This document shows positions 2,473 to 21,266 of a DNA stretch of 24,750 nucleotides, piece by piece (position 1 is the first letter of the stretch; each line of letters opens with the position of its first letter). Below the pieces are notes generated by a model. The model was not told where the DNA came from. It saw only the letters and a program-made list of their open reading frames with translations, and did not search any database. A program made the translations under genes and the position numbers. Origin of the DNA: a virus; IMG/VR virus record IMGVR_UViG_3300042892_000880, positions 1 through 24,750 of that record, one strand, 5' to 3'.

Positions 2473-2792
2473 TCTTCTAGCAGATCTAATTTATTAGGCT
2501 TATCTTTCCACTCGTCGGCATCAGGCAATGCCGGTTTCTTTTTAGTAATGTTAGGCCATTTCTTACTTAATTTAGTATTAAGGTCAGTCCAGAACACAAC
2601 ATTAATATTGGTATCATTATCGGGAACAATAGCATCAACTGGGCACTCTGGCACACATACTCCGCAATCAATACACTCGTCGGGATTGATAACTAGAAAG
2701 TTTGGGCCTTCGTAGAAACAATCAACTGGACAAACGTCAACACAATCGGTGTGTTTACATTTAATACAATTTTCAGTAACTAGGTATGTCAT
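2469..2792 (-). CDS. fdxA: 7Fe ferredoxin ([3Fe-4S][4Fe-4S]), FdxA/FdI type
   Basis: This is a 107 aa low-potential electron carrier. Cysteines at 9, 12, 17, 21, 25, 40, 43, 46 and 50 fall exactly where the cluster ligands and the extra cysteine of Azotobacter vinelandii ferredoxin I lie. C9/C17/C21/C50 correspond to the [3Fe-4S] ligands and C25/C40/C43/C46 to the [4Fe-4S] ligands. The surrounding sequence ([19 protein letters not shown]) and the C-terminal extension with [17 protein letters not shown] are also of this type, and the length equals the family norm of about 106. It is not the plant-type [2Fe-2S] ferredoxin usually found in cyanophages. It overlaps the clamp loader stop and the deaminase start by 4 bases each, so it is fixed in the early operon. 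The physiological partner is unknown. The phage-encoded desaturase at 20557-21264 is one candidate. Confidence 0.96.
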
Positions 2793-4546: not shown

Positions 4547-4921
4547 TTAAATTCTATAGGCCTCGTTAGGTGGTGCGGTTCCGGTATCCATGCCTAAATA
4601 TGCATCAGACGGTCTCTCATCTGCTTGTAATAAAATTGAGCTTACTTCAACTCTTCGGATGACAATTTCGTTTCCATCATCTTCAACTTTAATTCCCCTA
4701 GTCCATCTGCCGTGGTCAACATAGATCCACTCGCCGACTTTAACATCGGTTTGTTCGGGACCAACAGCCCATACTCGACACCATCTAGGTTTAACTCCAT
4801 GACTCTTTCCGTCATCGCTTTGAATAATAATTCCCGATGCGGTAGTTTGTTCTTCGAAGCTCATGTCCGTTACTAACACATTATCATGTAACGGTTTTAA
4901 TTTACCTTTGACTACGTTCAT
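4547..4921 (-). CDS. 31: GroES/gp31-like co-chaperonin
   Basis: This 124 aa co-chaperonin is predicted to cap the host GroEL (or a phage variant) and help fold the major capsid protein, as T4 gp31 does. KLKPLHDNVLV (7-17) matches the first strand of GroES. Residues 21-45 form the flexible mobile loop with SGIII in place of the usual hydrophobic tripeptide. KVGEWIYVDHG (61-71) matches the conserved GD-x-V strand region. It is longer than E. coli GroES (97) and T4 gp31 (111), mainly through a C-terminal tail from about residue 100 (ADERPSDAYLGMDTG onward) rich in acidic residues and proline. The ATG directly follows the upstream stop codon, with GAGG 5 bases before it. It sits between the conserved 73 aa gene and the MazG-like gene. 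Confidence 0.9.
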   Translation of the reverse strand: MNVVKGKLKPLHDNVLVTDMSFEEQTTASGIIIQSDDGKSHGVKPRWCRVWAVGPEQTDVKVGEWIYVDHGRWTRGIKVEDDGNEIVIRRVEVSSILLQADERPSDAYLGMDTGTAPPNEAYRI

Positions 4922-5166: not shown

Positions 5167-5174
5167 TACTTATC
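5167..5174 (-). promoter_or_regulatory. Weak late-box candidate upstream of the 73 aa gene
   Basis: GATAAGTA on the minus strand, one mismatch from GATAAATA, 23 bases before the ATG at 5143. It overlaps the end of the preceding gene. No good -35/-10 pair was found at this position. Confidence 0.25.
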
Positions 5175-5670
5175 TCAAAAATTCACGCCAATCTAAATCG
5201 TATTTAATGCTATCGATTTTATGAACACCTATTAAGAATAATACATAACTAGCAACACTTGACCCCCTACCTACTCCCCAGAGTACGTTATTTTGCGTCA
5301 GTGTGTCTACTATATATTTAAGCACTCTAAGCAAGGGTAGCATATTTCTTGCTCTAAATTCTTGCAATTCTTCAATTAGCCGCGGATAGTGCTCTTCGGG
5401 ACACTGACCGACTAAAAAGTCTTCAATGTCTAGGGTTTTGTATTCTTGGGGTATAAACCAATCAGTTTGACACATTGTATCAAACTCCGGTATGTCTAGT
5501 TCTAGCTCTTGGTGTATATTGAAGCCAAGATCACTAGCATTTTTAAATTGAGCAATTGATTGAGTATTTTCTGCAATGATGCAATCTATCAGATTTACAT
5601 TACCGTTGTAAATTAACTTTACAATGTCCTGTTCTTGATAGATTACATTACTGAATTTGTCATTAAGCAT
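5170..5670 (-). CDS. DNA polymerase III alpha-like fragment (palm/thumb region, no catalytic Asp)
   Basis: A 166 aa protein. Its C-terminal 45 residues match the conserved stretch of bacterial C-family replicative polymerases (DnaE/PolC; Pfam calls this region DNA_pol3_alpha). G-V-G-R-G-S-S-V-A-S (residues 132-141) aligns with GPGRGSAAGSLVAY. IDSIKYDLDWREFL (152-165) aligns with the DPLKYNLLFERFL element. The protein stops exactly where a real polymerase would continue into the motif with the catalytic aspartates (PDIDIDF), so it cannot be a polymerase by itself. The N-terminal 110 residues contain TDWFIPQEYKTLDIEDFL and a helical part that may correspond to a thumb-like segment. There is no ribosome binding site. 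A promoter with its -10 box 6 bases before the ATG suggests a leaderless mRNA. The role is unknown. Confidence 0.75.
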   Translation of the reverse strand: MLNDKFSNVIYQEQDIVKLIYNGNVNLIDCIIAENTQSIAQFKNASDLGFNIHQELELDIPEFDTMCQTDWFIPQEYKTLDIEDFLVGQCPEEHYPRLIEELQEFRARNMLPLLRVLKYIVDTLTQNNVLWGVGRGSSVASYVLFLIGVHKIDSIKYDLDWREFLR

Positions 5671-5676
5671 CTAGCT

Positions 5677-5705
5677 ATTTTAGCTGACTTTAATGAGACT
5701 GTCAA
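5677..5705 (-). promoter_or_regulatory. Second leaderless sigma70-like promoter
   Basis: TTGACA (5705-5700), a 17-base spacer and TAAAAT (5682-5677, 5 of 6 matches) end 6 bases before the ATG at 5670. This is the same geometry as the promoter at 4142-4170. It lies within the last codons of the 77 aa gene, whose TAA stop is part of the -10 box. Confidence 0.7.
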
Positions 5706-5913
5706 GATCTTTATCTCTCTTTTGGTATTGTTGCTCTACTAGTTTGGCTCTACGAGAACTTAGCTCAGTTTTATACAAGCCAATAAAGATGCTGATTTGT
5801 TCTTTTACAGATGGATTGGCAGTTTGCCAATATTTCTTACTTAGATCTTGCAACTTGTTTTCAATTTCGATATCTTTAAGTTGGCTAAAATCTTCTGCTA
5901 ATGGATGTATCAT
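5680..5913 (-). CDS. Conserved phage protein, 77 aa, predicted helical
   Basis: A short, charged, probably all-helical protein (begins MIHPLAEDFSQLKDIEIENK) with heptad-like spacing of hydrophobic residues and many Lys/Glu/Gln, which suggests a coiled coil or helical hairpin. No catalytic motif or membrane segment is visible. The ATG overlaps the stop of the upstream fibre gene by 4 bases (ATGA), and GGAG lies 10 bases upstream, so it belongs to the late tail transcript. Proteins of this type (NPSVKEQISIFIGLYKTEL) seem familiar from T4-like marine phages, but I know no function. Its last codons carry the promoter for the next gene. Confidence 0.78.
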   Translation of the reverse strand: MIHPLAEDFSQLKDIEIENKLQDLSKKYWQTANPSVKEQISIFIGLYKTELSSRRAKLVEQQYQKRDKDLDSLIKVS

Positions 5914-7169
5914 GCGAATGCAGCTCCGTTGTTACCAATACAGAACCATTTGTCGTTGATGTATTGTAGTGTACAGGCCTGCCCAGCTGCACTAAATGTG
6001 ATGGTTCCGGCACCACCCCATGCCGGGTTAGTTACAGTAATAACCATATCTCCAACATCGGCAAACATAGCAAACGTTTTAACTTGACCTGCAGTGCCTA
6101 CAGCTAGAGTAGCTGTCTCAGCGGCAGCGGTTGAAAAATAACTTACAGATTTTGTTAAATCTGCCGCACCTGCATCAACAAGATCTTCACTACCGGTGTA
6201 GTAAGGATCTGGAATTAAATTTGTTGTATCTGTTAAGTCGCTAAGATCAGCTGGAATTAAATTTGTTGTATCTGTTAAGTCGCTAAGATCAGCTGGAATT
6301 AAATTTGTTGTATCTGTTAAGTCACTGACATCAGCTGGAATTAAATTTGTTGTATCTGTTAAGTCACTGACATCAGCTGGGATATCTAGTACATCATTGA
6401 TCCACTTGCTAGTAGCGGTATCATATACTATTACTTGCCCATCAGTCGGAGTACCAGTAATAACTACATCAGTTAAATTATCTAATGTTAAACTATCACC
6501 TACATTATCTATACCATTAACCCACGCTGTTCCGTTATACTTTAGTACTTGTCCGTTAGTCGGACTAGTGATAGTAACATCAGTTAAATTATCGATAACA
6601 GAAATTGTTGGACTAGCATCTAATTTGAAATATACAGTTGCACCTTGGTCAATTGTCCATACATCTATAATTTGAAGGTCATCATCGACGGTCACTATGC
6701 CAGTTGCTGGCAGACTATTGAATACTTTATTACTTCCACCTGCAGCACTTAATGTAACTTGATAGGCTGTAGCTGTGCTGCTTTTAATAGCTAGTTTCAT
6801 AGAAGCATAAACGTCTTCAGTAGGCCAACCGTCAATGATCAAGGTAGCTGTACCAGTTACTGTAATTTCTTGGTATAGTCCATTGGCTAAATCTACATTA
6901 ATTGATCCCGCATCAACTATTGGATAAACGGTTCCGTATAATCTGTTAGTTCTTGCGTTATCAATTAAGTATCCGCCAAAATTATTGTTGTCGTCTAGTC
7001 TAGCTGAATTAGTTTGTAAGTCGGTTAGCTCAGCCTTAGCAGTTGCAAGCCCGTCTTTAATCACGCTAAAATTATCTCTAAAACCTTGGCTGTCGTTGTC
7101 TTGTCCAGCAACTGGATAATCAGCGTCGATTGTTTCTGCTATTACTTCACTTGGGAATTGTCTGCTCAT
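5910..7169 (-). CDS. Tail fibre-like structural protein with 14-aa tandem repeats
   Basis: A 419 aa protein. The N-terminal region contains AGQDNDSQGFRDNFSVIKDG (22-41), a motif seen in structural proteins of T4-like marine phages. A beta-rich part follows (about residues 55-200). Next come two copies of a module of the form LTDV-I-T-PT-GQV--Y-T--W (about 193-270), then a run of near-identical 14-residue units PADVSDLTDTTNLI (about 265-325). The C-terminal domain ends with NDKWFCIGNNGAAFA, resembling fibre tips that report 'image-type' beta folds. There is no signal peptide, as expected for a phage virion protein. A GATAAATA late box lies 33 bases upstream. The ATG overlaps the stop of the preceding adhesin gene by 4 bases. 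The fibre or baseplate assignment is by composition, repeats and neighbours. Confidence 0.8.
   Translation of the reverse strand: MSRQFPSEVIAETIDADYPVAGQDNDSQGFRDNFSVIKDGLATAKAELTDLQTNSARLDDNNNFGGYLIDNARTNRLYGTVYPIVDAGSINVDLANGLYQEITVTGTATLIIDGWPTEDVYASMKLAIKSSTATAYQVTLSAAGGSNKVFNSLPATGIVTVDDDLQIIDVWTIDQGATVYFKLDASPTISVIDNLTDVTITSPTNGQVLKYNGTAWVNGIDNVGDSLTLDNLTDVVITGTPTDGQVIVYDTATSKWINDVLDIPADVSDLTDTTNLIPADVSDLTDTTNLIPADLSDLTDTTNLIPADLSDLTDTTNLIPDPYYTGSEDLVDAGAADLTKSVSYFSTAAAETATLAVGTAGQVKTFAMFADVGDMVITVTNPAWGGAGTITFSAAGQACTLQYINDKWFCIGNNGAAFA
6211..6378 (-). repeat. Four tandem copies of a 42-bp unit inside the fibre gene
   Basis: Units at 6211, 6253, 6295 and 6337 are nearly identical. The first two differ from the last two at a few positions around the Val/Leu codon. 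Each encodes 14 residues with the core SDLTDTTNLIP, so gain or loss of units keeps the frame. A diverged relative (SNLTDTTDLIPA) occurs in the 1084 aa fibre near 18770-18830. Confidence 0.97.
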
Positions 7170-10100
7170 GTTATTGTAGTCCTATCGTTTCTAAATACAA
7201 GATATTTATCTGTATACTCACCGGTCACAGAATCTATTATATATCTGTCAATGGTGTAATCTAGCAATTTAAAATCAAAATTGCTGTTTTTAATGTTTAA
7301 CAATATGGCATCTGCTGTTCCGGGTTTGCAATAGCATAGCGGAACCGCTGGCACATAGTTAATTTCTTGGCTTTGGCCTGGTTGAATACTGCGCATCCAT
7401 AATGGCATATAGTTGCGTTCAGACAGCGTATTCGGCATATTCTTAATTCTATAACGCCATAGACTAATACTGCTTGGAAATCTCCAAGCTGTCTCAGGAT
7501 CGCCCGCAAATACATCAGTCCTATCTAAAGTAATACTTAGCGGAATTGGACGTTTCCAAAATGGATTATCAACGTTAAATGGTCCGTTATAAAATTCGTT
7601 TGTAGTATCAGTGGTAATATTTAGATTATTTTTACTGTATTTTATAGTTGCCGGTAGCCGTGTTTTGTCTTTTTCTAGTGGATCTAATACTTCTAAGTAT
7701 ATAACTTCGTACAGCACATCATTAGTTCCGGGAACTTTAGCAACAGCTTTTTTAACTTGACCTAGTTTAAATCTCTTTGGCTTGTGATTTCTGCCCATAG
7801 CACTGACATACTCAACCGCTAGTTTTGTCTCTACACCACCGAATACCAACATGGTCAAATTACGCTGTATACCAAAATACGGATCGTTGGCTCTGTAAAT
7901 TAGAGTTGGATCAAAAATAGTTGGATCAGTAATAAAATCTTTAAATCTAGTTCGTTGATCAATTTTTAAGAATGGTCTTGCTGATAAATTGCTATAGTAG
8001 GTATTGTTAGGAGTATTAATAAACAACGTAAATTCTTTAGTAACAGCACTATATCCCAGTTGATCCCTTGCTCGGACAGTAAACGAATAGCTTCTATCAG
8101 TTGTAGTTGCGCCGCCATCAAAGGTCAATGTATTGTTATCGTAGGTAGTTAACGATTTGTCTGCCTCAGGGAATCTATAAACAGTCCAATTTGTAGGGCT
8201 AAATGATAGGCCACTGACATGCTCTGTTTTTGCTTTATAATATGTTGGAGCATTGTAAGTAGTACCGCTGGCTACTTTCATAGATATACTAGTTCCCTTG
8301 TTAGGGTAGCTAAAGTAGTTCAATGGGATAATCAATGTCTGTGCTTCATATGTTCCTGGACCAGTTGTTGTACTAATTGTACCAGTACCCCATGTTCCTG
8401 GATTAGTGTTAAAGTTTAACGTTACTGTATTTAAGGTACTTGCAGTTGCAAAGAATCTACCATTATAATTAGTATTACTGTTTCCGTTAATCCTGTACCA
8501 AAATTCTAATCCTGATGAAGTAGTAACAGTTAAGTCATGAACTCCGTTAACCCCACCTAGGTCAGCACCACTAATAGTGATTCTTTCTCCTGGCAAATAG
8601 CCGGTACCTGGATCTACTAATGTAACGGTAGTTACTCCTATATAAGTCGGCGTTGATAGGTTAAGCCCTTTCTCAACTCGAAATCTTGCACCTACTCCAT
8701 TACCAGTTGACGATGCGGCTGGCACATTGTTATATACAGCTGGAATAGTAGAAATAGCCAAACCCTTTATCAAAGTAAACACCGGTGCCAGCGGAGCTAG
8801 AGTCTGCGTTGGAATACCAAATGTAATTCGATAAGGTCCACTACCGGTGATAGCTACAAACGATTCTAGTTGAATAGCAGCAATGGTAACACTTACAGCA
8901 TCGTAATAGTTAAAATTTAAATCGTCTGATACAATCTCAACTAAGTCGCCTGTAACAAAATCGTGATCTACACTGGTTACAACACTGGCTGTATTTTTTC
9001 TTCTAGTAAGAGATTTAATACCTTTAATATTATTCTGTTTAATAATATCATTTACAATATAGAGTTTATTAGGCTTCCAGTAGCTGTTATAATGGAATTC
9101 GCTGCTTAACTGATTAACCTTGCCAACAATTTCACCGTCTAAGTTTAGCGTTAATCCGGATGGTAATTTACCATCTTCGAGTGTATACAGCACTGCTGAA
9201 GTTGACAATGTGCTGACTGCCACAACACTTAGCGTACTTACATACCCAGTATCAATTGTACCCAAGTCAGTTGGAGTTATCCAAGTCATTACACTTTCAA
9301 TTTCGCCTAGGATGTCAACAGTAAACACACGCCTGCTAATTGATGTCTCGGAGCCTTGACCAAATCTAATAGCCTTAATGGTAAATGAATAAGTCCGTGT
9401 AATAGCCGGCTGATAAGGAACTACACCAAACACTTCACTTGATGTAGTATCAAACTCCATTCCGGGAGGCAGTACACTATCGGTGCCGATATAAATTGCT
9501 GATCCGTTAGGTATAGTTAGCTCAAGCGGCACATTGACTGATATTCTATAAGTATCACCGCCTAGCACATCAACTCCGGTGATAGTGTATATTTGTTCAG
9601 TTCCGCCTTCGATCTCACCGTTAAATGTTATTTTATATCCTACTTCCGGAACTCCACTGGCACGTTCCACTCGTATATTATTTAGACCTAATCTATTATC
9701 GCTAGAGAGTTCTCGTATGCACACTCCGCTTATTAATGCATTGACATCGGCAAATGCATAGACTATCGGACCTAGATCGCTGAATCCTTCGTAGACATCA
9801 ATCTTAAATGTTTGATAATTATTGGCTCTACGTAGTCCTAAGTAGTTGGCAGTTGTAAATATTGGAGCTCGTACATAAGTAATATCTGCTGTGTATGCTC
9901 CAGTACCTGCTGACGTTATAACGTTATCAGCACGGAAGAAATCGTCCCCTACTACAAATATTCTAAACTTTCGTTTAGCAACAGTATCGCCGTCAGTAAT
10001 AGTAGCAATAAATTCGTAGTTTCGATTTAATTTACGAGGTCTAGCTGTTGGCACACTGAAGTCGTAGACTGTTAAATCATATACGTATGTGTCATACCCG

Positions 10101-10690
10101 TTGCTAGATCTGTATCCAAAGTCGTAGGCAATGTCGTCGTATAGACTCTTATCATAATTTCCATTACCTGACTTTAATGGTATTGCTAGTAACGGTTGTA
10201 CAAATCCTGTGATCCTTCCGGTATTAGTTAAAATTAATCCAGGCGGAAGTTCGCCATCATCGCTAGCAATGAAAAATTGTAATTGTTGTCCGGTGGCTGT
10301 ATCAGTATCTTTAGCACTTAATTGAAAATCAATAAAACTACTATCTAAGATGTAATACGCATTATTGGTTCCTACTGGTAGTAATCCTTCGGGGCTTAAC
10401 CATTGAGGTTCATCGGATCCCACTACTGTTAATGAAAACGTTCTATCAGATAAATCAGTACTATTACTGGCTCTGATAACAAATTTAAATTCAGTAGTTC
10501 TTGGCACTTCAAAGGGAGTACCAATTATACTGCTACCGGAAATACGTAACCCTTGGGGTAATTTTCCCGATATTAATTGAAATGTAAGTCCGTAGTTAGA
10601 GATTATAGGTAACGCAATGTTTACCGTTTGTCTTTCGTTTAATGTTCCTAGACTAAAGCCCGAGGATTGTGTCCATACAGATAATGCCAT
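7166..10690 (-). CDS. Large Ig-like (cadherin-like) adhesin or fibre protein
   Basis: A 1174 aa protein built from repeated beta-sandwich domains of the putative-Ig (He_PIG/cadherin-like) kind. The telltale element LP-GL-----G-I-GTP or a close variant appears at about residues 44-58 (LPQGLRISGSSIIGTP), 148-160 (LPPGLILTNTGRITG), 405-420 (LPPGMEFD) and 525-540 (LPSGLTLNLDGEIVG). Each is followed by strands such as YSFTIKAIRFGQGS. Around residues 562-625 an HxF-TGDLVEI module resembles the E1-FCCH-like insert found elsewhere in the tail genes. The last ~170 residues (from FYNGPFNVDNPFWKRP) look like a distinct C-terminal domain. No signal peptide. The ATG has CGGAG 5 bases upstream and a late-box variant GGTAAATA 17 bases upstream. 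A host-binding role is inferred. Confidence 0.82.
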   Translation of the reverse strand: MALSVWTQSSGFSLGTLNERQTVNIALPIISNYGLTFQLISGKLPQGLRISGSSIIGTPFEVPRTTEFKFVIRASNSTDLSDRTFSLTVVGSDEPQWLSPEGLLPVGTNNAYYILDSSFIDFQLSAKDTDTATGQQLQFFIASDDGELPPGLILTNTGRITGFVQPLLAIPLKSGNGNYDKSLYDDIAYDFGYRSSNGYDTYVYDLTVYDFSVPTARPRKLNRNYEFIATITDGDTVAKRKFRIFVVGDDFFRADNVITSAGTGAYTADITYVRAPIFTTANYLGLRRANNYQTFKIDVYEGFSDLGPIVYAFADVNALISGVCIRELSSDNRLGLNNIRVERASGVPEVGYKITFNGEIEGGTEQIYTITGVDVLGGDTYRISVNVPLELTIPNGSAIYIGTDSVLPPGMEFDTTSSEVFGVVPYQPAITRTYSFTIKAIRFGQGSETSISRRVFTVDILGEIESVMTWITPTDLGTIDTGYVSTLSVVAVSTLSTSAVLYTLEDGKLPSGLTLNLDGEIVGKVNQLSSEFHYNSYWKPNKLYIVNDIIKQNNIKGIKSLTRRKNTASVVTSVDHDFVTGDLVEIVSDDLNFNYYDAVSVTIAAIQLESFVAITGSGPYRITFGIPTQTLAPLAPVFTLIKGLAISTIPAVYNNVPAASSTGNGVGARFRVEKGLNLSTPTYIGVTTVTLVDPGTGYLPGERITISGADLGGVNGVHDLTVTTSSGLEFWYRINGNSNTNYNGRFFATASTLNTVTLNFNTNPGTWGTGTISTTTGPGTYEAQTLIIPLNYFSYPNKGTSISMKVASGTTYNAPTYYKAKTEHVSGLSFSPTNWTVYRFPEADKSLTTYDNNTLTFDGGATTTDRSYSFTVRARDQLGYSAVTKEFTLFINTPNNTYYSNLSARPFLKIDQRTRFKDFITDPTIFDPTLIYRANDPYFGIQRNLTMLVFGGVETKLAVEYVSAMGRNHKPKRFKLGQVKKAVAKVPGTNDVLYEVIYLEVLDPLEKDKTRLPATIKYSKNNLNITTDTTNEFYNGPFNVDNPFWKRPIPLSITLDRTDVFAGDPETAWRFPSSISLWRYRIKNMPNTLSERNYMPLWMRSIQPGQSQEINYVPAVPLCYCKPGTADAILLNIKNSNFDFKLLDYTIDRYIIDSVTGEYTDKYLVFRNDRTTIT
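7203..7210 (-). promoter_or_regulatory. Putative T4-like late promoter box
   Basis: GATAAATA on the minus strand, 33 bases before the ATG at 7169 and inside the end of the upstream adhesin gene. It is identical to the box before the 1084 aa fibre gene. Confidence 0.5.
8815..9005 (-). repeat. Diverged E1-FCCH-like module in the 1174 aa protein
   Basis: Encodes ASVVTSVDHDFVTGDLVEIV and a following strand pattern. The H-x-F-x-T-G-D-x-V-x-I core matches the A-H-G-L---D-V-I modules at 13275-13490, 14961-15206 and 17539-17770, though the rest is diverged. Confidence 0.4.
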
Positions 10691-10751: not shown

Positions 10752-12944
10752 TCACAACGTTCGATATATATTCGGTCTAGGATAAACCATGCCTATTGCT
10801 GGTCTAGGTTTAAAGACTACATTAGGAAATACAGATCCAGACGATTCTCTTGGATTTTTAAAATACAAGTACTTGTTATTACCGCCTTGAATCCACGCAT
10901 AATTAGAGTAGTTATATCCTGCTCCTAGTACTTCAGTAATCTTGTTGTTCCCGGCCTTCTGTAATAACCATGCTAACGCTTCACTTTGCGTTAGTCTTGG
11001 GTATATTTCTAACAAACATGCTAGTACACCACAGACCTGTGGGCTAGCCATACTAGTTCCGTCATACTTAGCATAAAATCCCGCACCGGTATCTAACCCA
11101 TCATCGTACGTGGACGATATAATCGAACTACCTGGTGCATAGATATCAACCCTTGGCCCGGTATTACTATAGCTTGCTTTGGATTCGTTACCGGTAGTTC
11201 CTATAGCACCGACGCATATCATACCTGTGGCCGAGCCAGGACTAGAGCCTCGATGATAATATACTGATTGGCTAGCTGATAAAATCATTCGATTGTTGTA
11301 GTCGACTCCGCCAGGCACATCAATTTTATAAGAATCGTTACCTGCAGAACCTACAAATATAATTCCATCGTTGATTGCATCTGCAATATCTGCATCTAGT
11401 GAATCAACTCGTACTGGAAGCGAGGCACTTGAGGCATTAACTAGTCCATACGTAGCTACATTAGATGACGTAAATGTTGCGGCATATTGTGCATTTTGGC
11501 CAATCTGAATTTCAACACGATTTGGAAATGCTTCAAAGAATTTAGCTTCCCATACTATATCGGGACTATCTACAATGCCGCTAGAAGCAGCTGTTCCTTC
11601 CCATCTAACTGTGTACGTTCTAGTACCAGAGTCGCCTTCTACTCCGTAGTAAATTTTTTGACAGCTTAAATCTGCAGCATTGATGCTTATTTTTGGAAGA
11701 AGCGGAGTATTAGGAGCTGTGGGGATTACCATGCTACCGGCACCAAAAGTTATATATCCGTTAGTACCAACGTATATACTAGTGTAATTAACTGTAAAAT
11801 ATGTGATAGTAAATGGCAAATCTAACTGCCAATAGCCGTCATCGTTAGCGTTAACGCCACCTATTGCATCGAATACATCAGGAGTGGTCGAACTGGCCAG
11901 TCCCGCACCGCCTCGTAGCACAAACGGAATACTGCTACCGACACCTCCCGTTGTAGTGTTACTGACTAATCTGCTGCCTGTATTCACATTTCCTTGAAGA
12001 ATAACACGTCTATTGGATTCAGTAAAAAATCCAAATTGCCCTAATGAAACAGGAACATTGCCCACGCCAGCCGGTGTAAAATTTGCGCCTTGGTGGTCGA
12101 TTGATTTTATAGATGCTAGTAAAGTCGACGACCAATTTTGAATAGCATACCCCCAACTGTTATTACAGATTGTAGGATTTTTTCTGCCAGTTTCCGGATT
12201 AACCGGTTTGGTCCTATGAAATTCTCTAATATAGTCAATTAGATATTGTACTTGTGTGTAGCTGCTACTGAATCTTAAATTGTAGATATTAGCTTCCCTA
12301 GCCCATCCTTGCGTATTTCCTGCTGCGGTTCCGGATGTATGTGTACCATGATTATTATTACCTGAGTAATTGTCGTATAGGTACGTACCAGTTGCGCCAC
12401 CAGTTACTTCTGGATTATGTTGGAACCAGTTATACTGAACATAGCGTGTGTCGAATTCTGGATGATCGGGATAGGCAATTGAGTCAACAATTATTACATC
12501 AACGTTTCTTCCGGATGTTGGAACAGTTATAGTTGCTGTTTGTGTAGGACTTGCAATAGGAGTATTACTTCCCCAAGGACTCGGTGTAAATATACTCTCC
12601 GGTAATGTGCAACGAAGCAATCCCCAGTTTTTCATAGTAGCAGTAGTAGATGTACTTTTATCCCATGCATCTGAAGTTTGAGTATAGTGTGCTACTGGAG
12701 TATAGCCTAACTCGTCGGGAGTTAATGCCACTGATTGTACTCTAGGATCCTGTCGAAGTTGCTCTGCTTCTTCGTAGGTTAGCATATAATTTGTATTTCT
12801 ACTTATAGGTCTTTTGTGCGCAACTTCTACTCGTCTATTGGGAATGTAAAGATTACCACCTTCTGTTTCCATGTCTTGATAAAATTCTTCTAGATCATCG
12901 TAGTTTGTCAAAGTTACTACGTGCTCGTGTACAAAGTCAACCAT
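10752..12944 (-). CDS. Subtilisin-like serine protease (S8) in the tail module, copy 1
   Basis: A 730 aa protein with a complete subtilase triad: D154 in VDVIIVDS, H199 in NNNHGTHTSG and S631 in GTSMASPQ. The oxyanion asparagine is N536 in GSAGN. Residues 1-80 (with the RPISRN motif and DPRVQSV) form an N-terminal domain shared with the next protease and may act like an I9-type propeptide or attachment domain. Between NNSWG (261-265) and the oxyanion region lies an insertion of roughly 220 residues (about 295-515). It is a beta-sandwich with WQLDLPFTITYF and YVGTNGYITFG, reminiscent of NIDO-type domains. The C-terminal tail contains RPAIGMVYPRP. No signal peptide, so it is probably a virion protein rather than a secreted one. 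It follows its paralogue after a 9-base gap, with AAGGAT 5 bases before the ATG. Confidence 0.88.
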   Translation of the reverse strand: MVDFVHEHVVTLTNYDDLEEFYQDMETEGGNLYIPNRRVEVAHKRPISRNTNYMLTYEEAEQLRQDPRVQSVALTPDELGYTPVAHYTQTSDAWDKSTSTTATMKNWGLLRCTLPESIFTPSPWGSNTPIASPTQTATITVPTSGRNVDVIIVDSIAYPDHPEFDTRYVQYNWFQHNPEVTGGATGTYLYDNYSGNNNHGTHTSGTAAGNTQGWAREANIYNLRFSSSYTQVQYLIDYIREFHRTKPVNPETGRKNPTICNNSWGYAIQNWSSTLLASIKSIDHQGANFTPAGVGNVPVSLGQFGFFTESNRRVILQGNVNTGSRLVSNTTTGGVGSSIPFVLRGGAGLASSTTPDVFDAIGGVNANDDGYWQLDLPFTITYFTVNYTSIYVGTNGYITFGAGSMVIPTAPNTPLLPKISINAADLSCQKIYYGVEGDSGTRTYTVRWEGTAASSGIVDSPDIVWEAKFFEAFPNRVEIQIGQNAQYAATFTSSNVATYGLVNASSASLPVRVDSLDADIADAINDGIIFVGSAGNDSYKIDVPGGVDYNNRMILSASQSVYYHRGSSPGSATGMICVGAIGTTGNESKASYSNTGPRVDIYAPGSSIISSTYDDGLDTGAGFYAKYDGTSMASPQVCGVLACLLEIYPRLTQSEALAWLLQKAGNNKITEVLGAGYNYSNYAWIQGGNNKYLYFKNPRESSGSVFPNVVFKPRPAIGMVYPRPNIYRTL

Positions 12945-12953
12945 ATGTTATCC

Positions 12954-15746
12954 TTATCTTCTACGTATTTTAGGTCTTGGAAACACGTTACCCGATGCTG
13001 GACGTATTTTATAATTAGTCTTTGGAAATAAATTTCCGGAATCTTGACGCTCTTTATTATAAAATAAAAATCTATTTTCCCCGCCTTGCAGAGATGTAGT
13101 GTCATTGAAGCCACCTAGTGTTTCGTACATCTTATCAATTTTACTATAATTTAAAATGTATGTCTTGGCATCTGCTTGCGTCATTGTTGGGTATGTTTCT
13201 AATGCAATAGCCAACACTCCCGCTACTTGAGCAGAACTCATGCTAGTTCCGCTATATTTTTGATACAAATATCCTTCAGTAACAACGCCAGTATCTAAAG
13301 TAGTTGTTAAGTCTGTACCAGTATTTGCATAGGTAAACGTATTTGTACCAGTTCGAGTTATCAACGTCATTGATGTATTAAACGTTGTCTGTCCAGTGCA
13401 TACAATTGATACTAGATCGTTAGTCTGTAATCCGTGAGCAGCAGTAGTTGTAATAGTAGCAACGTTGCCGCTTCTAGCCACAGATGCTAGATCTGTACGT
13501 ACAACTGATCCATCATTAACTGGATCGTTACCACTCCAACTAGTTCCAGTAGTTCCAGCACTGTCATATACACCGCTCATGATATTATACCCGGGAGCAT
13601 ATATGTCAACACCTGGCCCGGTATTGCTATTTTGTCCTTTACTTTCTTCTGACGTGCTAGCAACTGAACCTACGGATATCATATTTAAATTTGCATCTGC
13701 TGTACCTCTAGAATTTGCAGGAGTAGACCCTCTATGATAATAGAAAGGAACGCCATTATCTAAAAAGTAATTATTATAATCAGTACCGCCTGGCACATCA
13801 ACTTTAAAACCGCCGTTGCCAGCCGAGCCTACAAATATAATACCGTCTGCTACTGCATCTTCGATGTCTGCATCAAGTGCAGGATCTCTATAAGGTGCTA
13901 GTTCTCCGCTTTGCATAATTCCGTAATCTTGTAATTGCGCTAGAGTAAATTCAGCCCTATATGCAGCGTTCTGATCTATATGTAAGTCAATTTGATTTTT
14001 TTTGGCTGTAGCTTCGTAGAAAGTCATTTCCCACAACATAGTTGGTGAACCTAATACTCCTCCGCTAGCAGCATCATGTCCTTCCCATCGTACTCTAAAT
14101 GTTCTATTAGGAGTAGATCCAGTTACACCGGTCCATAGACTTTGACAACTGCGATCGCCCGCTGAAATACAAATTTTTCTAGCACTGGGTGATCCCGGAC
14201 CAATGTCTACTGTGTATGGGTTACCGTACCCGCCGAATGTAACAAGACTGTTAGTATTCACGAATAGATATTGATTATTTCCCGACGTTCCTGTTCCGTA
14301 GTTTTGACCAAAGAAGGTAATTTGGAATGGGAATGTAATTTGCCACGCTGAGTCGTCGTAGTCATCACGCCCGTCAGGGCTTATGAATGTAGGTGCACCT
14401 GCATTGGTTAATCCGGTGCGTCCGCCGATAACTTTACTTATACTACCTACACTGCAACTAGCCGGACTAGTGCTCGTAGTGACTATTTGATTACCACCGT
14501 TACTGATGTTGGCTAATGCTGATGCCAATACTGTAGTAGTACACACACCACTAAAGCCTGTGTCTACTACAGGTTCCCCTATGCCGGTTGCTGTGAAATC
14601 TGTACCGCGGTATCTTATTTTACTAAATCTTGAATTGCCGAGACCATTAAGTGTATTAGTTACATTAACTTTTGTACCTAATCCCCAGCTGTTATTGACA
14701 ATCGTTGGGTTGACAACACCAGTAGCGGTGTTAACTGATTTTGAATTATGCCATGCTCTAACATAATCGATAACATATTGAGAAGGTGTAAATGATCCGC
14801 TAGCATCTCCGTCGTTACTAGTAAACCCTTCAGTATCGTGTCTAAAATTATAAACGTTGGCGTCTCGTGCCCAACCCTGTGTACTACCCGTTATAGTAGC
14901 AGCCACATGAGTTGCATGATTATTAACACCGGTATAGTTATTATATTGATATTTGCCAGTCCAAGTTCCGCTAGCTGAAACTCTTCCTACTGTTGCTCCT
15001 GCATTAGCATAGGTAATAGTATTAATAGTAGTGCCGTCTCCGCCTTCGCCACTAGACGTAACCCCAACAGCAGTTACTGTTGCAGACGTAGTACTAAATG
15101 TTCCGTTAGATGTACATATAACATCGATTACTGCGCCCACATTAATATAATGTGCAGTTTGAGTAGTAATTGTTGCATTGCCGGTTGTTCTAGCCACATG
15201 TGTGATAGTGCAACCTGTACCGCGTACTTCGAGATCGTGCTGACTAAACCAATCATATTGAACTAATCGTCCGCCGAATTCTGTATGTCCGGCGTAGGCT
15301 ATATCGTCAATAACTACTACGTCGACATTTTTACCCGAACCTGTTATGTTAATTGTAGCCGTTTGACTACTTGCACCACTTTCCGAACCCCATCCTGATA
15401 TGTTATCACTTAGGGTAGATCGATACAATCCCCAATTCTTCTGACCCACAATAGAATTATTGCCACGACTCCATGCTGCGGTCTGGCTGTGTAATTTTGT
15501 TTTAATTCCTAGTTTTGCCGCAGGTGTACTAACTGACTGTACTCGAGGATCGTTTTTAATATTTTCAGCTTCGTCGGGAGTCAAATAGTAATGTGTATTT
15601 CTACTAATAGGCCTTCTGTTAGCACATTGAACAGCACGTTCGGGAATAAATCCTCCCGAACCTGTGTTTTCCATTTCAAAGTAGAACTGTTCTAAGTCGT
15701 CTTTATTTTTAAGAGTAACAATGCATTCTCTAAAAATTGTTGGCAT
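12954..15746 (-). CDS. Subtilisin-like serine protease (S8) in the tail module, copy 2, with nested modules
   Basis: A 930 aa paralogue of the adjacent protease. The triad is D147 (VVVIDD), H277 (NNHATHVA, where the usual HGTH has Ala for Gly) and S835 (GTSMSSAQ). The oxyanion asparagine is N644 (GSAGN). The N-terminal ~80 residues (RPISRN, DPRVQSV) and the C-terminal RPASGNVFPRP match copy 1. It is 200 residues longer. A module of about 80 residues is inserted between Asp and His (181-262) and a related one of about 70 residues between Asn and Ser (753-824). The NIDO-like insertion (about 390-615) is also present. Insertions at surface loops of an intact subtilase fold suggest it can still fold. 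Activity is plausible but unproven. It follows the 1084 aa fibre gene after one base, without an obvious ribosome binding site. Confidence 0.87.
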   Translation of the reverse strand: MPTIFRECIVTLKNKDDLEQFYFEMENTGSGGFIPERAVQCANRRPISRNTHYYLTPDEAENIKNDPRVQSVSTPAAKLGIKTKLHSQTAAWSRGNNSIVGQKNWGLYRSTLSDNISGWGSESGASSQTATINITGSGKNVDVVVIDDIAYAGHTEFGGRLVQYDWFSQHDLEVRGTGCTITHVARTTGNATITTQTAHYINVGAVIDVICTSNGTFSTTSATVTAVGVTSSGEGGDGTTINTITYANAGATVGRVSASGTWTGKYQYNNYTGVNNHATHVAATITGSTQGWARDANVYNFRHDTEGFTSNDGDASGSFTPSQYVIDYVRAWHNSKSVNTATGVVNPTIVNNSWGLGTKVNVTNTLNGLGNSRFSKIRYRGTDFTATGIGEPVVDTGFSGVCTTTVLASALANISNGGNQIVTTSTSPASCSVGSISKVIGGRTGLTNAGAPTFISPDGRDDYDDSAWQITFPFQITFFGQNYGTGTSGNNQYLFVNTNSLVTFGGYGNPYTVDIGPGSPSARKICISAGDRSCQSLWTGVTGSTPNRTFRVRWEGHDAASGGVLGSPTMLWEMTFYEATAKKNQIDLHIDQNAAYRAEFTLAQLQDYGIMQSGELAPYRDPALDADIEDAVADGIIFVGSAGNGGFKVDVPGGTDYNNYFLDNGVPFYYHRGSTPANSRGTADANLNMISVGSVASTSEESKGQNSNTGPGVDIYAPGYNIMSGVYDSAGTTGTSWSGNDPVNDGSVVRTDLASVARSGNVATITTTAAHGLQTNDLVSIVCTGQTTFNTSMTLITRTGTNTFTYANTGTDLTTTLDTGVVTEGYLYQKYSGTSMSSAQVAGVLAIALETYPTMTQADAKTYILNYSKIDKMYETLGGFNDTTSLQGGENRFLFYNKERQDSGNLFPKTNYKIRPASGNVFPRPKIRRR
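13275..13490 (-). repeat. E1-FCCH-like module nested between Asn and Ser of protease copy 2
   Basis: Encodes residues 753-824, with VARSGNVATITTTAAHGL and NTFTYANTG as landmarks. Clearly related to the module at 14961-15206 and to that at 17539-17770 in the 1084 aa fibre. Confidence 0.75.
14961..15206 (-). repeat. E1-FCCH-like module nested between Asp and His of protease copy 2
   Basis: Encodes residues 181-262, with VARTTGNATITTQTAH and TITYANAGATVG as landmarks. It interrupts the loop that in copy 1 joins the Asp strand to the His helix in about 45 residues. Confidence 0.75.
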
Positions 15747-15747
15747 A

Positions 15748-18700
15748 TTAAGCTTCTAGTTGTAATGCAGTTAACGTGACTGTAATAGCAGCTTCTGCGC
15801 CGCTCTTGTTAGTAACTCTAACAGGAATATTTGTAGTTACAGTGCTTTCATTATTAAATCCTAATGTACCTGGACTAATTAATACTGTCTGTGCTCCTGT
15901 AGTGATAACTTCTGCAATTACACCTGCGCCCGGTAATGGGTCGGTTCCCTCAAGACGACTAGCATCGGCAATTCTAGCAGCCTCGCTGACATAGATTCGT
16001 ACCCAAGCTGCTGCACTAGTTTCCACTCTCATCAGCATATACGACTTATATCCAGTGATGTTAATTGGTCCGGTTAATCCATCTGCTAAACTGCTAGTTG
16101 TACCGGATAAGGTAGCTCTAGTTGGCAAGCCGCCGCCGGCTGCGTCTGTACCGTTAACCCACTTGCTAGTGCCAGTATCATATTTTAATACTTGACCATT
16201 CGTTGGAGTTCCAGTGATTACTACATCTGACAAATCATCTAGCGCACTTGCTCCGCCACCACTAGCATTGATAGTGATAGTGTCAGTACCGTCATTAGTA
16301 GTGATAGTAACATTAGTACCAGCTACTAAGGTCAATGTATCAGTTGCGCTATCAGCAGCCACGCTAGTTTGACCCGCTACTGCAATAGTACTAAAACTAT
16401 TGCTTGCAGTTCCGCCGCCACTAGCGTCAATTGTTATTTCGTCAGCACTGGTTCTAGTCAACGTGATGTTAGTACCTGCAGTTAGCTTAACATTATCAGT
16501 TGTTGAATCGCTACCTGTTAATCTTAAATTTACTCCGCCGGTTGCAGTTTCTGCGCTAATACCGTATGTAGTATTAGTATCAGTAATTGTAGATGCAATA
16601 GTAATTGTATCTGTTCCATCATTAGTAGTTATACTAACTCCTGTACCAGCTACTAATGTCAATGTATCAGTTGCGCTATCAGCAGCTACGCTAGTTTGAC
16701 CTGCTACTGCAATAGTACTAAAGCTATTGCTTGCACCGCCTGATGCTACAGTAGTGAATGTAAATACACCAGCTCCGTCAGTAGTTAATACTTGACCAAC
16801 AGTACCGTCTGTGATACCAAAACTAGTAATGCTTGTGGGCTTGCCAGATAGGTCAGCATAGACACCACTGAACAATGTTGGCTTATCAGTCAAATCATCA
16901 TAGTCACCACTGAACAATGTTGGCTTACCAGCTAGATCAGCGTAATTACCAGTAGTTGCCACAGCAGATAATGAAATCCACTCTGTGTTATAATTTGTTC
17001 CGTCAATCTTTGCAAGTACTTGTCCTGATGTACCTCCAATTACTACACCTTGGCCATTAGTACCGTTAGTACCATTAGTACCAGCAGCACCCTGGAATGG
17101 TCCAAGATCGACCCATGCACTGCCAGTATAAGACCATAAATGATAAGGAGAAACATCTAGCAACACATAGGCATCACCTGCTACCATACCAACTACAGCG
17201 TTTAATGCTGTGTTGTCTGCTTTTGTACCAAGTACTTTAATCGAACCAATAGCCACGCCTGCAATAGTTGATCCTGCTGGTAGTACTATGCCTGTACCGC
17301 TTGCAGTAATTAATGCGCCGCCTGCCCCAGCAGTACTACCAATTCGTAGTCCACTACTTGCACCGTTAATTGCAATTGAGTTATTTGCATATACAGTCTG
17401 ATCTGAGTTTATAAGTAAACCTGTAACTAATGCTCCTGTACTATTGGCAACCATTAGGCGTAAGTTACCAGGAATGATATTAGTACCGATTGTGCCAGTA
17501 GCTTCTGCTCTAATAACAGCAGCTCTTACATCAAAGTTTCTACTAACTACTGTACCTGTAGCTAAAGTTGACAGTACAGCGATTCCAGCATTGGCAATAG
17601 TAAATGTTGTAGTATTAGGTACTGAAATTACAGTTGCATGAACCGTACTAAACGTAGAGTCACTACAGGTAATACTAACTACCCATCCAATAGGACCACT
17701 AGTCCCTACAGGTAATCCGTGAGCTGAATCGACTGTGTAAGTTGCAACACCTAGTAGTCTAGATACATTGGTAATATTTGTAGTTGTTGCTACTCCGTCA
17801 AATGATGAGAATCGTATCGCTGAAATAACATCACCAGTTGCAATAGCATCAGGCGCATTATATGTAGCTCCCTTAATTTTTTGTAGTGTAAATGCCGGAG
17901 TATATGCAGCAACGTTACTATGACTTCTCATAGTTAATGGATTTGATCCACCAGCTATTCCAGTGCCTGCATCAATCAATGTCAGTGATGCACGAAGATT
18001 TGGTGCGCCCATTGTTGCTACCGTTGTGGTGATAGCTAAAGCAGTACCACTGATTGTATTAGCTGAACTTTGTATTGTTGCACTGCCTGCTGTACTCAAA
18101 CTAATGCCGATTGGGGCATTCAACGCTATTGATCCTACTCCAGTTAACGAGATGGTATCTACTCCAGATTGTAATCCACCCACCGGTACGCCTAATGCAG
18201 TTTGCAAAGATACTTGACCTTTTACAACAAATCTAGATGTATCTGAATCATAAAATAGTTGAGAGTCAGGTAATGCACTTAACGCAGTGCCGTTAGCAGC
18301 ATAGAACGGAATACCGTATCGCAAGCCGCTGCCAACAGTACCACTTGTAGAATCTATTCTAATGATACTGTCAGTTTCGTCAGTGACTGTAATATTAACA
18401 CCAGCTTTTAAAAATAAATTCTGAGCACCTGTGCCGCTGCCGCCAGCAGTCAATACTACATTAGCACCGCCTGCTTGAGTTCCAGCTGATATTGCATAGG
18501 TAGTGTTAGTATCAGTAACTGTACTAGCAATGGTGATAGTTTCAGCATCTGTGCGAGATACTGAAATTCCAGAGCCACTAGCAAATTTAACATCGTCTGT
18601 ACTAGCATCACTTCCAGTTAAACGTAAGTTAGTACCACCAGTTGCTGTTTCAGCACTTATAGTATAGGTTGCACCTGTGCCGCCGCCAGTTGAATCAGCT

Positions 18701-19002
18701 GCCGGTGCCCATGCTGTACCGTTCCATTTTAGAACTTGTCCTGAACTTGGAGCATCGCCGGTTACATCCGCAAGATCTGCTAAAACTGCGGGAATTAAGT
18801 CGGTAGTATCGGTTAAGTTACTAACATCAGTTGGAATAGTGCCTACAGCATAGGGCAATGCTGACCACGCTGTAACACCGTTTCCAATTTTAAATTTACC
18901 AGTATTTGTTTCAAACCCAGGTTCCCCTGCGGCTAAAACAACTGATCCTGCAGCGTCCCAGGCAGCTGAAGTTCCTCTTCTTAATATAATTTGTTGTGGC
19001 AT
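15748..19002 (-). CDS. Long tail fibre protein, 1084 aa, modular
   Basis: The first ~50 residues (MPQQIILRRGTSAAWDAAGS, then FETNTGKFKIGNGVTAWSALPY) are the N-terminal domain typical of phage fibres and of the Bordetella phage tropism determinant Mtd, usually used for attachment to the tail. Then come an LTDTTDLIP unit, a GQVLKWNGTAW module and duplicated beta-strand repeats. An E1-FCCH-like module lies at about 411-488, followed by a short collagen-like GTNGTNGTNG stretch (about 640-650) and DL--KPTLFSG repeats (about 685-722). A C-terminal domain (about 955-1084, ending TVTLTALQLEA) resembles receptor-side domains of other phage fibres. No signal peptide. GATAAATA lies 23 bases upstream and GAGG 9 bases before the ATG. 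The fibre role is well supported. The receptor is unknown. Confidence 0.87.
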   Translation of the reverse strand: MPQQIILRRGTSAAWDAAGSVVLAAGEPGFETNTGKFKIGNGVTAWSALPYAVGTIPTDVSNLTDTTDLIPAVLADLADVTGDAPSSGQVLKWNGTAWAPAADSTGGGTGATYTISAETATGGTNLRLTGSDASTDDVKFASGSGISVSRTDAETITIASTVTDTNTTYAISAGTQAGGANVVLTAGGSGTGAQNLFLKAGVNITVTDETDSIIRIDSTSGTVGSGLRYGIPFYAANGTALSALPDSQLFYDSDTSRFVVKGQVSLQTALGVPVGGLQSGVDTISLTGVGSIALNAPIGISLSTAGSATIQSSANTISGTALAITTTVATMGAPNLRASLTLIDAGTGIAGGSNPLTMRSHSNVAAYTPAFTLQKIKGATYNAPDAIATGDVISAIRFSSFDGVATTTNITNVSRLLGVATYTVDSAHGLPVGTSGPIGWVVSITCSDSTFSTVHATVISVPNTTTFTIANAGIAVLSTLATGTVVSRNFDVRAAVIRAEATGTIGTNIIPGNLRLMVANSTGALVTGLLINSDQTVYANNSIAINGASSGLRIGSTAGAGGALITASGTGIVLPAGSTIAGVAIGSIKVLGTKADNTALNAVVGMVAGDAYVLLDVSPYHLWSYTGSAWVDLGPFQGAAGTNGTNGTNGQGVVIGGTSGQVLAKIDGTNYNTEWISLSAVATTGNYADLAGKPTLFSGDYDDLTDKPTLFSGVYADLSGKPTSITSFGITDGTVGQVLTTDGAGVFTFTTVASGGASNSFSTIAVAGQTSVAADSATDTLTLVAGTGVSITTNDGTDTITIASTITDTNTTYGISAETATGGVNLRLTGSDSTTDNVKLTAGTNITLTRTSADEITIDASGGGTASNSFSTIAVAGQTSVAADSATDTLTLVAGTNVTITTNDGTDTITINASGGGASALDDLSDVVITGTPTNGQVLKYDTGTSKWVNGTDAAGGGLPTRATLSGTTSSLADGLTGPINITGYKSYMLMRVETSAAAWVRIYVSEAARIADASRLEGTDPLPGAGVIAEVITTGAQTVLISPGTLGFNNESTVTTNIPVRVTNKSGAEAAITVTLTALQLEA
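16294..16408 (-). repeat. Direct repeat, copy 1, in the 1084 aa fibre gene
   Basis: About 115 bp that recurs at 16621-16735 (offset 327 bp). The 87-bp core from 16321 is roughly 94 percent identical by eye. It encodes SFSTIAVAGQTSVAADSATD and what follows. Confidence 0.9.
16621..16735 (-). repeat. Direct repeat, copy 2, in the 1084 aa fibre gene
   Basis: Second copy of the repeat at 16294-16408. The two copies frame the SAETATGGVNLRLTGSD unit, which itself has another relative near 18560-18665. Confidence 0.9.
16838..16948 (-). repeat. 42-bp tandem repeat encoding DL-x-KPTLFSG units
   Basis: Two full 42-bp units (16838-16879, 16880-16921) and a partial third one encode the common phage-fibre pattern Y-DL--KPT-FSG. 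The unit is again 14 residues, as in the repeat at 6211-6378, though the sequence differs. Confidence 0.85.
17539..17770 (-). repeat. E1-FCCH-like module in the 1084 aa fibre
   Basis: Landmarks VSRLLGVATYTVDSAHGLP and TTFTIANAG match those of the two modules nested in protease copy 2, showing exchange of this module between tail genes. Confidence 0.65.
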
Positions 19003-19046: not shown

Positions 19047-19625
19047 TTATGGCGCACCGCCGTCGATAACCACAGTATATACTGTGTCAGGACTTCCACC
19101 ATCTAGTATTAGATCAAAGTCTCCTCCGCCCGGAGTACCACCGTCTAATATACTGCTAGAACTATCTTCAATCCCTACACTTACAGAAACAGCTGGAGTA
19201 ATTCCAGTTAATGTTACTGTAAATGTTTCTAATCCTTCAGTAGTAAAATCATTTGAAATATTAATTACAAGATTTGCTGTGTTAGAATTTACAACAAAGT
19301 TTCCAGTTAACGCACTTAGACCTAAATCGCCTGCGCTAATACCAGTTCCCGTAATAGTAAATGGTACCGAAGTTCCATTACTTACGTTGGTTGTTGTTAG
19401 TGTAATTGTTACAGTATCGCCTTCGTTGGCTATGTTAGTACTTCTAGCTAAACTGTATGTCGGAGTTGTTGGGGGTTCGCTGCTACCCGCTAAGATATTG
19501 CCACCTGGAGTTATACCGTCTCCGATATACAGTAGCTTAGTATCAGTTACATAGATCAACTCACCCTCTTCTGGAGTAAAATTTAATCTGTCTGCTTCTG
19601 CTCCGCGTCTTATTAATAATGCCAT
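19047..19625 (-). CDS. Short fibre-like protein with Mtd-type N-terminus and Calx-beta-like domain
   Basis: A 192 aa protein. Residues 1-46 (ALLIRRGAEADRLNFTPEEG, then LIYVTDTKLLYIGDG) are a short form of the phage-fibre attachment domain also seen at the start of the 1084 aa fibre. Residues about 56-150 look like one Calx-beta domain: ANEGDTVTITLTTTNVSNGT, then NFVVNSNTANLVINISND and EGLETFTVTLTG. Such domains are often Ca2+-binding beta-sandwiches in adhesins. The end is Gly/Asp-rich (LDGGTPGGGDFDLILDGGSP) and may be a flexible tail. AGGGG lies 6 bases before the ATG. It stands between two other fibre genes, so it is probably an accessory fibre or tip protein. The Calx-beta call is from pattern only. 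Confidence 0.75.
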   Translation of the reverse strand: MALLIRRGAEADRLNFTPEEGELIYVTDTKLLYIGDGITPGGNILAGSSEPPTTPTYSLARSTNIANEGDTVTITLTTTNVSNGTSVPFTITGTGISAGDLGLSALTGNFVVNSNTANLVINISNDFTTEGLETFTVTLTGITPAVSVSVGIEDSSSSILDGGTPGGGDFDLILDGGSPDTVYTVVIDGGAP

Positions 19626-20553: not shown

Positions 20554-20561
20554 TATTTAGC
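20554..20561 (-). promoter_or_regulatory. Putative late promoter box, variant
   Basis: GCTAAATA on the minus strand, 18 bases before the ATG at 20535. Its TAA is the stop codon of the desaturase gene, so coding constraint could also explain it. Confidence 0.3.
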
Positions 20562-21264
20562 TGGTTCGCACTTTTGCTAAACCTAGCACTTTTAATATAC
20601 TAATATAAAACCAGCCTATGTCAAATTCCCACCATTTTTGACTAAACTTAGGATTAGCGATGTCTGCATGGTGGTTATTATGCAGTTCTTCCCCGCCAAT
20701 CCATATGCCCCATGGCATTAAATTTGTACTTTTATCGTTGGTGTTGGTGTTGCGATAGCCCCACCAGTGTGCCATTCCGTTGATAAATCCAGCGGCCCAA
20801 AATGGAATCCATAACATTTGTACACCCCACACTAGAAATCCCCATGGCCCAAATAACAACAAGTCTATGACTAACATTAAGAGAATGCCAAGGCGATGGT
20901 AGGGTGTATAAAGTTTACGTTCGATCCAGTCTTTGGGAGTACCCATTCCGTATTTCATGATCATGCCAGCATCACTGCCTGCACGATTGTAATACTTGAC
21001 TCCGCCAAACACTAGATTCCAAATGCCGTATACGTGTGGACTATGTGGATCGCCTTCTACATCAGTGTTCTGATGATGCTTACGATGTACTGCTACCCAC
21101 TGCTTGGTAGTCATGCCTGTAGTCAGCCACAACCAGGCTCGCATAGCGTGTGCCAGTACCGGGTGAAACTCTACACCTCTATGACTTTGACTACGATGTA
21201 GATACAGGGTAACTGACACTATAGTCAAGTGTGTCATTAAAAGTGTTATTAGTATTAGTTCCAT
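20557..21264 (-). CDS. Membrane fatty acid desaturase (Delta9 acyl desaturase type)
   Basis: This is a 235 aa diiron desaturase predicted to insert a cis double bond into acyl chains at the inner membrane, using O2 and two electrons. All three histidine boxes are present: H23-RSQS-H28, H60-RK-HH64 and H195-NN-HH199. The N162-GMA-H166 element and the GEELHNNHH context are typical of the family. Membrane segments are likely near 3-22, 38-52, 126-145 and 148-162. The end (KWWEFDIGW, GLAKV) resembles short proteobacterial desaturases of about 250 residues, so it appears full length or slightly short at the N-terminus. I chose the ATG at 21264, with GGGA 6 bases upstream. A TTG at 21276 would add four residues and overlap the upstream gene. 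It is an isolated metabolic gene between fibre genes. Confidence 0.93.
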   Translation of the reverse strand: MELILITLLMTHLTIVSVTLYLHRSQSHRGVEFHPVLAHAMRAWLWLTTGMTTKQWVAVHRKHHQNTDVEGDPHSPHVYGIWNLVFGGVKYYNRAGSDAGMIMKYGMGTPKDWIERKLYTPYHRLGILLMLVIDLLLFGPWGFLVWGVQMLWIPFWAAGFINGMAHWWGYRNTNTNDKSTNLMPWGIWIGGEELHNNHHADIANPKFSQKWWEFDIGWFYISILKVLGLAKVRTS

Positions 21265-21266
21265 GA

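Follow-up and report, generated by a model that had tools for sequence, protein, structure and literature searches.

Two adjacent proteinase-K-type subtilases with fibre-type inserts in a phage tail gene block, likely mounted on the virion tail

The virus fragment analysed here (IMG/VR record IMGVR_UViG_3300042892_000880; 24,750 b, in the following termed the window) carries within a block of fibre and tail genes two adjacent subtilases, P2 and P1, which share domains at both ends and exhibit large insertions around the active site. We propose that both are zymogens that would mature themselves, would be mounted on the phage tail and would cut proteins of the host surface, with binding modules that can be swapped; we give this proposal about an even chance.

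The block is arranged in the order Mtd_N-type protein (19047-19625), fibre protein with an Mtd_N domain (15748..19002, minus strand; Mtd_N E 2.3e-11), P2 (12954..15746, minus strand; 930 aa, three insertions), P1 (10752..12944, minus strand; 730 aa, one large insertion), and the tail protein W3 (7166..10690, minus strand; 1174 aa). The intergenic gaps amount to 1 bp between the fibre gene and P2, 9 bp between P2 and P1, and 61 bp between P1 and W3. Both P1 and P2 match Pfam Peptidase_S8 (E 2.3e-34 and 1.2e-17, respectively), and the two tandem subtilase genes described from the letters alone in an earlier, sequence-only reading (10752-15746) coincide exactly with the open reading frames. The same reading had placed the pair among fibres, with common terminal domains and without signal peptides, which agrees with the present results: the neighbours are fibre and tail genes by their profile matches, P1 and P2 share the protease core and the C-terminus as well as the N-terminus, the latter with 49% identity over 191 aa, and a signal-peptide-like hydrophobic stretch was found in neither P1 nor P2. 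The profile of phrog_9158 covers the N-terminal domain plus the protease of the pair (E 4.6e-106 and 4e-73).

Concerning the remaining genes of the window, the fibre gene contains a direct repeat of 138 bp (16271-16408 and 16598-16735; 88% identical). A fatty acid desaturase gene with a TTG start and three histidine boxes (20557-21276, minus strand) is situated inside the tail block; it is 95% identical at the amino acid level and 89% at the nucleotide level to that of a related locus (L095), whereas the adjoining genes reach 47-72%, such that it is either unusually conserved or recently exchanged. The large protein at 21267-24749 (minus strand) is 88% identical to its relative in L080 over the first 821 residues, where the match ends; judged by the sequence, this break is the tip exchange typical of fibres. 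Beside the tail block, a GroES-like co-chaperonin (4547-4921, minus strand) and a ferredoxin with DUF3470 (2469-2792, minus strand) are host-like. A protein of 166 aa (5170-5670, minus strand), which is a separate gene in many relatives too, matches a fragment of the DNA polymerase III alpha family and is possibly a split polymerase.

In an alignment of 108 family members, the catalytic residues are D154/H199/N536/S631 in P1 and D147/H277/N644/S835 in P2, such that Asp, His, Ser and the oxyanion Asn are intact in both, as had been noticed before, and, apart from the first copy of locus L087, no full-length family member deviates at these four positions. Structure prediction, which the sequence-only reading had recommended, yielded a complete proteinase-K fold for each protein (AlphaFold; P1: pLDDT 81.2, pTM 0.74; P2: pLDDT 73.8). 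The models match proteinase-K-like enzymes over almost the whole chain at Z about 35-36, the values to 5wsl_A being Z 35.4 over 271 residues at 2.6 A for P1 and Z 36.2 over 276 residues at 2.2 A for P2. Against close relatives, the dN/dS ratio of P2 is about 0.07 overall and 0.03-0.08 in the Ser segment, the second small module evolving faster (0.15-0.20). Because triad, fold and strong purifying selection all support activity, we infer that P1 and P2 are catalytically competent S8 proteases of the proteinase-K type.

The subtilase fold might instead serve as a scaffold for binding modules, with catalysis being secondary or lost in one copy, such that a pseudo-protease would accompany an active partner. 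In L087 (1451-3721), the P2-type first copy runs from the second small module directly into the C-terminal tail; an in-frame gap of roughly 60-70 aa takes out the segment with the catalytic Ser, yet modules and C-terminal tail are kept. Unless this gap stems from an assembly error, a naturally occurring pseudo-protease here accompanies an intact partner, and P2-type catalysis may thus be dispensable in some phages. The variants HATHVAA around His and SSAQV around Ser in P2 point in the same direction, as does the Foldseek list, which includes structures of Clostridioides CspA and CspC, the latter titled pseudoprotease. However, the deletion in L087 may result from faulty assembly, the four residues are retained in all further full-length P2-type copies, and the constraint on the Ser segment is strong, so that we regard a mainly structural role as distinctly improbable.

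The N-terminus of both active-site-bearing proteins resembles a prodomain (residues 1-85; 15492..15746, minus strand, in P2 and 12690..12944, minus strand, in P1). The modelled residues 1-74 follow the order beta-alpha-beta-beta-alpha-beta, with the elements E6-12, H15-26, E41-43, E50-55, H57-63 and E69-74 in P1, where pLDDT is mostly about 90. This is the element order of subtilisin propeptides (I9), and mature proteinase-K-like chains align from P2 residue 86 onward; Pfam matches to Inhibitor_I9 are weak and below the cut-off (E 0.19 in the window, 0.015 at best in the family). From the topology together with these matches we infer an I9-like prodomain. Within the cell that makes them, P1 and P2 would be kept folded and inactive by this domain, which would then be removed by self-cleavage near residue 85.

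At the opposite end, a C-terminal tail is conserved in the family, being kept in 118 of the 131 complete members. In P2 it comprises residues 896-930 (12957..13061, minus strand) and ends in GNVFPRPKIRRR, and in P1 residues 703-730 (10755..10838, minus strand), ending in GMVYPRPNIYRTL. A docking motif common to other tail proteins was considered and rejected, the YPRPxIR-type tail not having been encountered outside the protease family.

The most conspicuous insertion, of about 220-235 aa, is situated in P1 and P2 directly after the substrate-binding strand (P1: residues approximately 289-508, 11421..12080, minus strand; P2: residues approximately 377-612, between this strand and the oxyanion Asn, 13911..14618, minus strand). 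The distance from the Asn-Asn-Ser-Trp-Gly strand to the oxyanion Asn thereby amounts to 275 and 293 residues in the pair, whereas it is 74-109 residues in relatives without the large insert; a big insertion ahead of the oxyanion segment, as reported earlier, is thus present. Its designation as NIDO-like found no profile support: no NIDO match was obtained in Pfam, either for the insert with E values up to 5 or for 55 family members with E values up to 1, and the sequence of the insert gave no solved relative. The P1 insert is similar to a stand-alone protein of 286 aa in S-SRM01 (E 2e-15) and to part of a tail fibre protein of a Stenotrophomonas phage (E 2e-3). In S-SRM01 (L012), the gene of the former (5644-6504) is located in the tail region, directly upstream of a gene for 1540 aa.

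P2 carries in addition two modules of about 85 aa that the sequence-only reading had overlooked: module 1 (residues approximately 176-262, between Asp147 and His277; 14961..15221, minus strand) and module 2 (residues approximately 741-826, between Asn644 and Ser835; 13269..13526, minus strand). These resemble each other and residues approximately 402-485 of the neighbouring fibre protein 15748-19002 (E 5e-6 to 5e-4; module 2 versus fibre E 5e-6), where the small module lies at about 17548-17799. Several large ORFs of a 383 kb relative contain it as well, and it is weakly similar to tail proteins of other phages; in Pfam, module 2 comes closest to E1_FCCH (E 0.0014), followed by the beta-barrel of phage endosialidase (E 0.056), both matches remaining below the cut-off. 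Module 1 is absent in L080 and L084, relatives that are 83-85% identical to P2 over the best segment, and was therefore recently gained or lost, with the triad unharmed.

Across the family, the alignment reveals extra domains at three sites around the active site. The site between the Asn-Asn-Ser-Trp-Gly strand and Asn holds about 330 aa in a clade of proteins of 875-910 aa and little in the cyanophage members. At the site between Asn and Ser, L064/L066 possess about 80 aa, as compared to about 85 aa in P2 and in several of its close relatives. The Asp-His site is occupied by about 85 aa in P2 of the window and of the near-identical contig L088; L121, L124, L127 and L128, which are otherwise short family members, carry there a separate insertion of about 320 aa that is missing in the close relative L099.

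Family scans revealed about 115 loci, 15 of which, including the window, contain two family genes. Of the 59 loci flanked by more than 2.5 kb on each side, 6 are tandems, which bears out the earlier remark that paired S8 proteases are unusual. The search for tandem S8 genes proposed at that time thus led to 15 such loci, in 14 of which, L058 being the exception, a P2-like gene comes first, with a clade support of 100 where tested. The second gene belongs to another clade (support 99); the window deviates from this, as its P1 lies beyond that clade and nearer to P2, with a support of 89 that is not decisive. Over aligned columns, the window and L081 are 88% identical in P2 and 95% in W3, whereas their second proteases share 46% and the upstream fibres 53%; between L081 and L095, the slot-2 proteases reach 72% identity. 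With P1 at 46% amid P2 and W3 at such values, the second slot of the window is most simply interpreted as a replacement cassette, swapped relative to a close relative. No P2 relatives were found in plasmids. The record G009, to which locus L054 belongs, contains a second, unlinked S8 gene at a distance of about 33 kb to the family protease (37796-38797; E 3.1e-42).

The gene arrangement bears also on the main rival to surface proteolysis, i.e., fibre maturation, according to which P1 and P2 would process adjacent fibre or tail proteins during assembly, or free their folding domains, and remain in the virion as remnants. The spacing of 1 and 9 bp within the fibre operon would suit such a role, the next gene is a W3-like tail gene in 25 of 110 loci, and most of the well-conserved peptidases of jumbo phages mature virion proteins, as argued in PMC7824862. 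A processing enzyme would, however, be expected to co-vary with its substrate, whereas the second protease of L081 is a different paralogue beside a W3 that is nearly unchanged; this argues against W3 as a dedicated substrate, but not against other fibres. Furthermore, many relatives are without a W3-like neighbour, and a dedicated processing enzyme needs neither fibre-type inserts nor the gain and loss of whole modules. We consider fibre maturation unlikely, and surface proteolysis is retained as the preferred reading.

That such surface-directed proteases are borne by the virion, as the sequence-only reading had suggested, gains support through homologues rather than from the pair itself. 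ORF228 of S-SCSM1 (L010, QFG06492.1) is a family member and bears the GenBank note '(virion protein)'. This tag is found on 48 proteins of the record, as compared to 45 virion proteins identified by MS in the corresponding paper (PMC9602691); since ORF91, ORF213 and ORF214, which are MS-detected according to the same paper, bear the tag and some predicted structural proteins do not, it most likely records detection. In gp329 of Atu_ph07 and XYS97278 of Sinorhizobium phage Phosso, the S8 protease, which possesses the triad, precedes He_PIG repeats and a C-terminal domain; the latter is homologous to W3 residues approximately 863-1154 (hhalign probability 98.9, E 1.2e-17). PMC6102473 assigns the virion proteins of Atu_ph07 found by ESI-MS/MS mainly to CDS 31-76, 170-215 and 284-329, such that gp329, the protease, constitutes the last CDS of the MS-defined cluster 284-329. 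Taken together, the S-SCSM1 tag, the fusion in Atu_ph07 and Phosso, and the Atu_ph07 cluster make it likely that P1 and P2 are mounted on the virion tail. For S-CREM1, 14 virion proteins are reported, and the protease is not named in the text of that paper. Effectors that are released or intracellular, and that would target host proteins once infection has taken place or upon lysis, without being parts of the virion, appear very improbable in the light of the tagged homologue, of the fusion to a tail protein, and of the position in a fibre block together with the fibre-type inserts.

Among the records with a tandem of this kind, the longest comprises 383 kb; its Gp23 capsid protein is 78% identical to that of Phosso and 71.5% to that of PA5oct. 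The earlier designation as T4-like is thus roughly right, with the capsid pointing more precisely to kin of jumbo phages, and the gene order shared with this record suggests that the window probably stems from a similar large phage. An origin from a photosynthetic phage was rejected: psbA-type PF00124 is lacking in 15 records of relatives, which are in many cases fragments and include the 383 kb record, and the capsid kinship is with jumbo phages.

Despite the general similarity to known proteases, there are clear differences. The cyanophage 'subtilisin-like serine proteases' of phrog_9158 (P-SSM2 PSSM2_297, Sf-FR1 SfFR1_192, S-H38, S-CREM1) share with the pair the N-terminal domain, the S8 core, the C-terminal tail and the tail-gene setting at about 31-47% identity, whereas they occur as single copies of mostly 550-690 aa without large insert or fibre-type modules. 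ORF228 of S-SCSM1 (1411 aa, 'baseplate wedge subunit') possesses the family protease at its N-terminus, but as a single copy fused to C-terminal regions of virion-structural type. The proteins of Atu_ph07 and Phosso (phrog_3677 'protease') combine an S8 protease and the W3-type C-terminal domain in one fused protein with He_PIG repeats, a different N-terminal region and no large insert, whereas the window encodes the tail protein apart from the protease and possesses the latter twice. With proteinase K, aqualysin I and subtilisin (MEROPS S8A), P1 and P2 have in common the complete fold, the triad, the oxyanion Asn and the prodomain-like N-terminus, but they differ in the missing signal peptide, the large inserts at the rim of the cleft and the location in a tail gene block.

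Following self-maturation, P1 and P2 would thus form part of the tail or fibre complex, docked probably via the conserved C-terminal tail and W3, the latter being suggested because protease and tail protein are fused in Atu_ph07 and Phosso. During adsorption, proteins at the host surface or in its vicinity would be cut by the virion-borne proteases, and the fibre-type modules at the rim of the active site may add binding of substrate or surface. By gain of modules and exchange of cassettes, the protease would evolve like a receptor-binding protein. A further-reaching and rather doubtful interpretation takes the protease as a determinant of host range, in which a fixed proteinase-K core would accept binding modules at the Asp-His loop, the pre-oxyanion loop and the Asn-Ser loop, and in which swapped cassettes and two differently aimed copies would unite recognition and surface proteolysis in one act.

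Virion enzymes against sugars and peptidoglycan are well known in phages, whereas enzymes of the tail that cut proteins are, to our knowledge, hardly studied. The family is so far known by annotation ('S8 peptidase', 'subtilisin-like'), its function being untouched in the open literature found, in which no functional study of virion S8 proteases was encountered. The words subtilisin and subtilase are absent from the jumbo-phage survey PMC7824862, and an S8 peptidase of P-HM1 and P-HM2, which may or may not belong to this family, is mentioned by Sullivan et al. 2010 (PMC3037559). Neither the tandem nor the fibre modules inside a catalytic domain, the cassette swap or the link by fusion is described in the literature found. 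Since family members exist in cultured cyanophages and related proteases in rhizobial jumbo phages, the proposal can be tested now. If it is true, these proteins constitute a naturally occurring design, a protease with built-in binding modules close to the active site, and, if tail-mounted, self-activated and programmable by modules, they would provide phages with a route past protein barriers.
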